Positions 7,347-8,873 of a stretch of DNA of 45,851 nucleotides are shown here, piece after piece. Under the pieces are notes generated by a model that made no database searches, was not told where the DNA came from, and saw only the letters and a list, made by a program, of their open reading frames with translations. Source of the DNA: Candidatus Zixiibacteriota bacterium (GTDB lineage Bacteria; Zixibacteria; MSB-5A5; GN15; PGXB01); contig JAPLUR010000123.1 of the NCBI GenBank assembly GCA_026397505.1, positions 1 to 45,851 on the forward strand, given 5' to 3'. The position numbers were made by a program, and so were the translations under genes. Position 1 is the first letter of the stretch. Each line of letters opens with the position of its first letter.

Positions 7347-7464
7347 CGGTAATTGTAATCTGTTGCGGAATAATATTAGAATCGTACCAAATTCATATCC
7401 ACGATTGCGAGAATCTGCATTTTTTTCTTGTTTCCGGGGGCCTTCCTGCCGATATTATTGATAA

Positions 7465-7617
7465 GCTAGAAAGGAGGTGGTCCGGTCTTGATAACATACC
7501 ATAGTGAGGTGACTGTTACTTAGTCGCTACCTCGACAGATATCGTGTTGGGGTACACTGAGTAAATCCCAACAGTTCTACCGGCCTGACAGCTTCATGAG
7601 AGGCGTCAGGCTTTTTT
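7465..7617 (+). ncRNA. Structured orphan RNA with hyper-long SD and 11-codon ORF
   Basis: AGAAAGGAGGTGGTCC (7468-7483) is complementary to the usual 16S rRNA 3' tail over 16 nt, with one G-U pair. Four nt later a TTG (7488) opens an 11-codon frame reading MITYHSEVTVT, ending at TAG (7521-7523). Predicted helices are: CCGGT (7482-7486) with ACCGG (7579-7583) closing a junction; GAGGT (7506-7510) with ACCTC (7529-7533), extended by GACT/AGTC at 7511-7514 and 7522-7525; TGTTGGG (7545-7551) with CCCAACA (7567-7573); and a terminator. A -10-like TATTAT at 7453-7458 would start the RNA right before the SD. No gene follows in the same direction. It could be a small regulatory RNA, a ribosome-binding RNA or a peptide-coding leader. 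Confidence 0.6.
7583..7617 (+). terminator. Intrinsic terminator of the orphan RNA
   Basis: GCCTGAC (7583-7589) and GTCAGGC (7605-7611) form a 7-bp stem, followed by TTTTTT (7612-7617). It lies between the structured RNA and the convergent peptidase gene, so it most simply ends the RNA. Confidence 0.8.
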
Positions 7618-7652
7618 ATTCAATGCGAGATTTGAGAGGGAAAGTTGATTCG

Positions 7653-8735
7653 TTATTGAGGCATTAGATTGTTATGTTTAAGATAATCAAGCCATTCGGA
7701 AACACTTTTCTGCTCGACCCAGGCCTTTACCCGGCGGAAACCCTCACCATATATTCTGTCAGGATCCTTTATCATATTTCTTATCAGGTATTCCATTTCT
7801 TTCCCCTCATATCGCTGAAGGACAAGATAGGAGGCATAATTGCAGCTTCCCTCCCGCAAAGTGTCATCCATTTCCAATGATGCATTTCGATACAGCCAAA
7901 CATGCATCAACTCATGCGCGATCCCCTGAATATAGACGCTCCTTGGCAATCCGGCGAGCATATAGATTTTATATTTTCGAGTGGTCACTGGTATTCGAGT
8001 GCCGGTCGACCGCTCATAGAAAGTATAACCGGTGACATCAGTCTTGTTCAGGCCATTAATTTTGGCCATTTTGTCTTTATCCACCAGAAGCAACGGGATA
8101 TTTTCCTCTTCAATCTCGATCCCTTTATCCCATAAAACCGCTTTAATCTGTGACATGATTTCTTTCGCCGCCGACTCGTCCATGACAGCATATTGCAGGC
8201 AAATACCGCATATCCTGCGGCCGTCAGGATAAGTCGTACCCCCCATGGAAAGGGAATCGGAAATAAACCGGAGACAGTAATCACACTGGGGAGCAGTCCC
8301 CTGATGGAATTTATGATAGCTGTTGCCCCAATCGTCGATAATATATTCTCCCTGAATCAATTCTCCGCAGAGACTGCAACGAAGAGCCACATGTTCGCGA
8401 TAACATGTATCATGATATCTCGCATTCTCATAGGTGACGTAAATCCCGTCGATTGGCTTGCCACAGTAAGCGCACAGAGGGGCAAAGAGTTCGACATGGC
8501 AGACACTGTCATAATACTGACCGTTTTCTACAAAATATGCCGCTTGTCCAATCGGGTTGCCGCATCCGGCACAGAGGAAGTGCTCAGGATGATAATATTT
8601 GCCGTCTATCGTGAGGTATGATCCCTCGGTTATATCCTTTCGGCAATAGGCACAACGTATCTGGTCGGAGGCGAAAGCTCCGCAACAGGATATGGCTATC
8701 AGAAAAGCCGCAACTAATGCTTCGCGACATCGCAT
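7653..8735 (-). CDS. Secreted LIM-domain metallopeptidase, DA1-like
   Basis: Encodes 360 residues from ATG 8735; a GTG at 8744 lies closer to the GAGGAG SD and is possible. A signal peptide spans about residues 1-23 (cut near AFASD). Paired-Cys LIM-type zinc modules follow: CAYC at 28-31 with HPEHFLCAGC, a second CAYC module with ARYHDTCYREH, then CSLC and CDYC. The C-terminal half holds the zincin motif HELMH (274-278) with a downstream glutamate in LREGSC (Glu295). That spacing matches the peptidase domain of plant DA1 proteins, where LIM and DA1-like peptidase domains also occur together. It is probably a periplasmic or extracellular zinc peptidase. The substrate is unknown. Confidence 0.82.
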   Translation of the reverse strand: MRCREALVAAFLIAISCCGAFASDQIRCAYCRKDITEGSYLTIDGKYYHPEHFLCAGCGNPIGQAAYFVENGQYYDSVCHVELFAPLCAYCGKPIDGIYVTYENARYHDTCYREHVALRCSLCGELIQGEYIIDDWGNSYHKFHQGTAPQCDYCLRFISDSLSMGGTTYPDGRRICGICLQYAVMDESAAKEIMSQIKAVLWDKGIEIEEENIPLLLVDKDKMAKINGLNKTDVTGYTFYERSTGTRIPVTTRKYKIYMLAGLPRSVYIQGIAHELMHVWLYRNASLEMDDTLREGSCNYASYLVLQRYEGKEMEYLIRNMIKDPDRIYGEGFRRVKAWVEQKSVSEWLDYLKHNNLMPQ

Positions 8736-8873
8736 TGCCGCCACACAACTCCTCAGTCGCAAATAAAAATTCTTCCAGATTATACTAATATTTATACAGC
8801 TAATTATATAAGGTGAAGCGATCAATTCCAAGAATAATTGTCCGGATGATTTTCGATAGTGGGTCTTTTTGTC

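Follow-up and report, generated by a model that had tools for sequence, protein, structure and literature searches.

The RNA family Ms_IGR-5 (RF02471) is filed in Rfam as "Actinobacteria sRNA". According to the search output, the Rfam entry describes neither an open reading frame (ORF) nor non-actinobacterial members. Ms_IGR-5 is transcribed in Streptomyces lividans and S. avermitilis (PMC8079986, PMC8780764) and in Mycobacterium smegmatis (PMC10454040). Ribosome-protected reads were reported for its homologues in M. abscessus and M. smegmatis (PMC4974804). These footprints alone do not prove translation, because many non-coding RNAs show them, as the authors caution (PMC4974804). A search of the open-licence literature, including searches by peptide and by accession, found no functional study of Ms_IGR-5. 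Three other systems resemble the locus described here in part. The Caulobacter RNA CC2171 (RF01867), an alphaproteobacterial sRNA, begins with GAAAGGAGGUGAUCC, after which a GUG may serve as the start codon, but its consensus lacks the GAGGUG element described below. In Staphylococcus aureus, extended Shine–Dalgarno (SD) pairing supports weak or non-canonical starts (AUU/AUA), whereas these sites drive ordinary genes or uORFs and not a free-standing structured RNA (PMC13009471). The leader ORFs of amino-acid attenuators are short and overlap competing stems, but the RNA described here has neither a downstream structural gene nor a run of control codons.

The window is the whole analysed stretch of 45,851 nucleotides from a Zixibacteria genome. 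The locus at 7465–7617 was read on both strands and its RNA was folded; the features are listed in Table 1. The fold has an energy of −54.7 kcal/mol (z = −3.45), which is better than 200 of 200 dinucleotide shuffles. An Rfam scan of the window at the gathering threshold gave no match. Below the threshold, however, RF02471 aligns to 7463–7619 over positions 1–184 of its 184 model positions, with 33.4 bits and an E-value of 1e-5 (curated gathering cut-off, 45 bits). Thus, the locus is not an orphan, as the preliminary description had called it. It has the same order of elements as the family, that is, promoter, SD, TTG/ATG mini-ORF with E-V-x-x-x-stop, stop codon within a stem, and terminator, and it shares the AAUCC..CAGU.ACC strand. 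The window comes from Zixibacteria, not from Actinobacteria, and the score is below the cut-off, whereas the alignment runs from end to end of the model. On these comparisons, the window RNA is a homologous variant of Ms_IGR-5 outside the curated membership. The CC2171 model gave 15.1 bits (cut-off 75, E 0.31), and a search with it in the phylum of genome G139 returned a terminator match only. CC2171 was therefore rejected as the family of the RNA; it may be an analogue or a very distant relative, and we treat it as an analogy only. A match to sX11 (E 0.48) was attributed to chance.

Table 1. Features of the Ms_IGR-5-like RNA in the window.
Feature	Position	Strand	Basis
Whole RNA unit, Ms_IGR-5-like	7465–7617	+	RF02471 alignment; Zixibacteria model R1
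Putative promoter (T-run, then TTGTTT 7428–7433)	7428–7458	+	inferred from homologue alignment
Putative −10, option 1, GATATT	7451–7456	+	17-nt spacer
Putative −10, option 2, TATTAT	7453–7458	+	19-nt spacer
16-nt Shine–Dalgarno AGAAAGGAGGTGGTCC, complement of 16S 3' tail	7468–7483	+	
Mini-ORF, TTG (7488–7490) to TAG (7521–7523), 11 codons, MITYHSEVTVT	7488–7523	+	frame kept in homologues
Internal SD-like GAGGUG, exactly three codons 5' of stop	7506–7511	+	invariant
Stem P1 5' strand (GGU, ACUG), within ORF	7508–7515	+	RNAalifold, pair counts
Stem P1 3' strand (CAGU, ACC)	7572–7581	+	RNAalifold, pair counts
Stem P2 5' strand UUACUUAGU, holds stop codon	7516–7524	+	pair changes
Stem P2 3' strand ACUGAGUAA	7556–7564	+	pair changes
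Upper hairpin P3, UACCUCGACA / UGUUGGGGUA	7528–7554	+	fold of window RNA
Alternative hairpin GUUGGG:CCCAAC, competes with P3	7546–7572	+	inference, folding without 5' part
Intrinsic terminator, stem + T6	7583–7617	+	fold; pair changes

Homologues were collected with a DNA pattern and with a covariance model. The pattern fixed only the SD and TGAGGTGNCTG, and specified neither start nor stop. It matched at least 120 loci, mostly actinobacteria among the matches listed; the others listed are Acidobacteria of several classes, Zixibacteria, a Spirochaetia MAG, a Binatia chromosome, an Eisenbacteria MAG and a "Proteobacteria" MAG. The model R1 was built from Zixibacteria only, with the window in its training set, and aligns to 7455–7622. 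Applied to 56 loci that came almost entirely from other phyla, R1 gave 55 matches with E-values from 1e-32 to 0.1. It detects the RNA, at one copy per genome, in Actinobacteria, Acidobacteria, Spirochaetes, Binatia, Eisenbacteria and the "Proteobacteria" MAG. One locus, L042 (16.9 bits), was dropped as a false match. Together, the listed pattern loci and the model-derived copies comprise 181 distinct sequences. By genome, R1 matched at least 46 of 132 in the phylum of the window, and matches were found in at least 17 of 199 acidobacterial genomes, 7 of 198 from the phylum of the spirochaetes and 2 of 297 from the phylum to which the "Proteobacteria" MAG belongs; the Rfam model matched at least 40 of 198 actinobacterial genomes. 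These counts are lower bounds because the first pass scores few candidates per genome, and the 86 genomes of the window's phylum with no match mean either that members of the group can do without the RNA or that the search missed copies. RF02471 itself, searched in 60 related genomes, reached its cut-off in 21 and fell just below it in a dozen, nearly always with one strong match per genome. Among the non-actinobacterial loci outside Zixibacteria, those that reach this cut-off are few: one acidobacterium and the MAGs of Eisenbacteria and Proteobacteria. Fourteen genomes from several phyla, each searched in full, contained a single copy apiece. The Ms_IGR-5 family reaches beyond Actinobacteria into several phyla.

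The 16S rRNA of the same genome, of which one copy was found in the assembly, ends in GGCTGGATCACCTCCTTTCTA. The SD pairs with this tail over 16 nt with one G-U, so the long contact that had been described against the near-universal tail holds for the organism's own 16S. Formally, the pairing extends over 7467–7487, 21 nt unbroken with three G-U and −34.8 kcal/mol, but the realistic pairing is 16–17 nt because the last four require helix 45 of 16S to be opened. The SD had been called far longer than any other in the window, and among the 32 other putative gene starts the best is 9 nt with −16.6 kcal/mol. In the family, the SD pairs with the universal 16S tail over at least 14 contiguous nt in 174 of the 181 copies. 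An extra base is present in the SD of the acidobacterial copies L178, L180–L183 and L188 (AGGAGGATGGTCC, AGGAGGTTGATCC), and it breaks the long 16S duplex.

Downstream of the SD, a canonical in-frame start is present in 166 of the 181 copies (ATG 77, TTG 66, GTG 23), against an expectation of 25 when the variable stretch is shuffled. At the same place, 14 of the other 15 copies have ATT, ATC, CTG or ACG, each one base off ATG. The start codons of the family are thus AUG, UUG or GUG, and rarely AUU, AUC or CUG. The near-cognate codons stand at an unchanged distance from the SD (L020, L038, L041, L201, L204, L208–L210, L212, L224–L226, L229 and L233). They form a natural series behind a maximal SD, which is possibly IF3-sensitive. 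The stop is located exactly three codons past GAGGTG in 179 of 180 complete copies, with TAG, TGA and TAA all used; among the pattern matches listed, this spacing is found in all 119 complete cases (TAG 91, TAA 16, TGA 12). The frame is preserved although the distance from SD to GAG occupies all three phases, and the ORF has a length of about 10–20 codons. The related copies are not independent, but because the ORF is spread over phyla and its stop codons are exchanged, translation of the family mini-ORF can be argued strongly from the sequences. The 11-codon ORF opened by TTG had been recognised correctly in the window. Conservation of the peptide MITYHSEVTVT, which the preliminary description had suggested looking for, is not supported: only the E-V stretch is fixed, and this looks like a constraint on the RNA. 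E-V is present near the C-terminus in all copies but one and is always encoded by GAG GTG. No synonymous change was found, even in model-search matches that were not selected for GAGGTG, which points to an RNA-level constraint. In three acidobacterial copies (L184, L185 and L187), the mini-ORF has a second in-frame GAGGTG (SEV...REV), which looks like a duplication of the element.

According to RNAalifold and the pair counts, a stem links the ORF to the strand just 5' of the terminator. It consists of P1 (GGU.ACUG/CAGU..ACC), continued by P2. Double changes were detected in 15 of 29 pairs in the Zixibacteria alignment and in 24 of 29 in the multi-phylum alignment, the latter fitted to R1; in each case 0 of 500 shuffles reached the observed value. 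By this covariation with the family sequences, too, the window RNA belongs with Ms_IGR-5. Both sides are changed in five of the eight pairs of P2 in Zixibacteria and in all eight in the multi-phylum alignment, and in 8 of 11 pairs of the terminator stem. That compensation arose independently can be seen by eye: in spirochaetes CUG:CAG has become CUC:GAG, and acidobacteria have CCUG:CAGG. These results bear out several points of the preliminary description. Homologues exist and their stems covary, the terminator is located where it had been placed, and the ORF overlaps a stem, with the 5' strand of P1 inside the ORF and the stop codon in P2. The proposed closing helix CCGGT/ACCGG is not conserved, and the covarying P1/P2 takes its place. 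A 5' hairpin CAC/GUG given by RNAalifold is invariant and is broken in the window, and was dropped from the model. A hairpin P0 at the start codon (GGUCC..GGACC) is not claimed, with only three pairs in the window (p 0.87); it passes the shuffling test in a quarter of the cross-phylum pattern loci listed, mainly actinobacteria.

The 33 Zixibacteria homologues share the promoter-like elements, SD, ORF, stems and terminator. In their alignment, the T-run, the TTG and the AT-rich −10 coincide and are conserved; the presumed start site is TACAC in these homologues and AAGC in the window. Independent transcription as a small RNA fits the putative promoter and the terminator, and the known transcripts are actinobacterial only (PMC8079986, PMC8780764, PMC10454040). 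Actinobacteria, acidobacteria and spirochaetes have a larger 3' domain, whereas Zixibacteria lack it and have GUUGGG/CCCAAC instead. In the larger domain, which follows P1 (for example in L175, L184, L193, L194 and L197), the terminator stem encloses hairpins; the loop of one of them has a recurrent GGUC or GUCC, for which GGAC 5' of GUGAGGUG is a possible pairing partner. In silico, removal of the 5' part that a ribosome would cover lets GUUGGG:CCCAAC form in 28 of the 33 Zixibacteria homologues. The separation of the two states is incomplete, because in 14 of 33 full folds CCCAAC is paired already. The pairing is invariant and thus gives no covariation evidence, and it is predicted here for the Zixibacteria homologues.

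Taken together, the comparison of homologues indicates an RNA that has an SD, a start, an open frame, a stop in a covarying stem, the GAGGUG element, and termination with no dedicated gene downstream. It supports the earlier proposal that the RNA binds ribosomes and that its mini-ORF, which overlaps a stem, is translated. We presume, with a probability of about 0.55, that this RNA, which is free-standing, present in a single copy and about 150 nt long, is a mini-mRNA and riboregulator in one, whose fold is set by the translating ribosome. The long SD would load 30S subunits even with a weak start codon. The ribosome reading the ORF would then melt P1/P2. When it reaches the stop, GAGGUG lies 6 nt 5' of the P-site codon, which is the spacing of an initiation SD; it may pair with the anti-SD again and keep the ribosome in place. 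In Zixibacteria, GUUGGG, once freed, could pair with the invariant CCCAAC, as the energy models suggest. Ribosome traffic would thus set which of two forms the RNA takes, ribosome-bound or ribosome-free. This form could report the cell's capacity for initiation, in free 30S and initiation factors, to a target in trans or to the stability of the RNA itself. The two-form switch is predicted by folding, and the sensor role and any target are conjectural.

The alternatives explain parts of these observations. An RNA that ties up 30S subunits by the 16-nt SD and the second GAGGUG, with an ORF for recycling or parking ribosomes, would fit the family-wide complementarity of 14–16 nt to the 16S tail and the initiation-like spacing of GAGGUG from the stop. 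However, conservation of the frame, start and stop, and a stop in a covarying stem, would not be needed in a pure decoy, and such a decoy would require a very high abundance of the RNA; we regard it as unlikely. It seems rather improbable that the product is the peptide of 10–20 residues and that the structure merely regulates its synthesis. The ORF is strongly conserved, and E-V is nearly invariant, but the constancy of the GAG GTG codons speaks for the RNA, the codons beside them change along with the stem as in the spirochaetes and acidobacteria above, and the N-terminal residues and the length vary freely. In the exceptional copy L216, the ORF runs in a different frame relative to GAGGTG (TTG CAG CAG GAC TGT GGA GGT GGC AGT AGC TAG), so that E-V is lost and the open frame is kept. 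The peptide is therefore the less convincing product, as only E-V is fixed.

A role in the maturation or quality control of the 16S 3' end, by pairing with the tail in the assembling 30S, would account for a complementarity that reaches the full tail. It leaves the conservation of ORF, start and stop unexplained, and the bulge in a few acidobacterial copies (AGGAGGATGGTCC) breaks the long duplex, so that we consider it very unlikely. A leader-peptide attenuator of a neighbouring gene is suggested by the leader ORF, the competing stems and the terminator. Of 138 loci, however, 72 have the next gene in the same orientation as the RNA and 66 in the opposite one, and no conserved neighbour gene family was found in about 140 loci compared. 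In the window, the next gene (7653–8831, − strand), which encodes a LIM/DA1-like protein, is convergent. With no accompanying gene family and a nearly even strand distribution, a cis-leader is highly improbable, and the RNA appears to be a free-standing unit. The same comparison gives no support to the idea that a leader-peptide sensor is present whose target gene is merely absent here. The product of the convergent gene combines a bacterial LIM domain with a DA1-like peptidase domain, an unusual pairing in bacteria. A chance arrangement, in which a strong SD merely happens to stand next to an ORF and a terminator, has a negligible probability, as homologues in different phyla retain the SD, the start, the frame, the stop and the stems.

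In our preferred reading, the Ms_IGR-5 RNA is probably a switch thrown by the ribosome itself. More tentatively, and with considerable doubt, it may be a cross-phylum RNA that measures translation, a free-standing mini-mRNA that has a maximal SD, a weak start and a ribosome-holding stop, and whose forms with and without a ribosome differ and signal the initiation capacity in trans. An RNA filed as an uncharacterised actinobacterial sRNA occurs in distant phyla, usually once per genome, and Ms_IGR-5 is thus a candidate for an old and general translation-linked RNA. The natural set of near-cognate starts (AUU, AUC, CUG) at one site would be useful for studies of initiation fidelity, and the function of Ms_IGR-5 becomes a testable question in Mycobacterium smegmatis and Streptomyces lividans.
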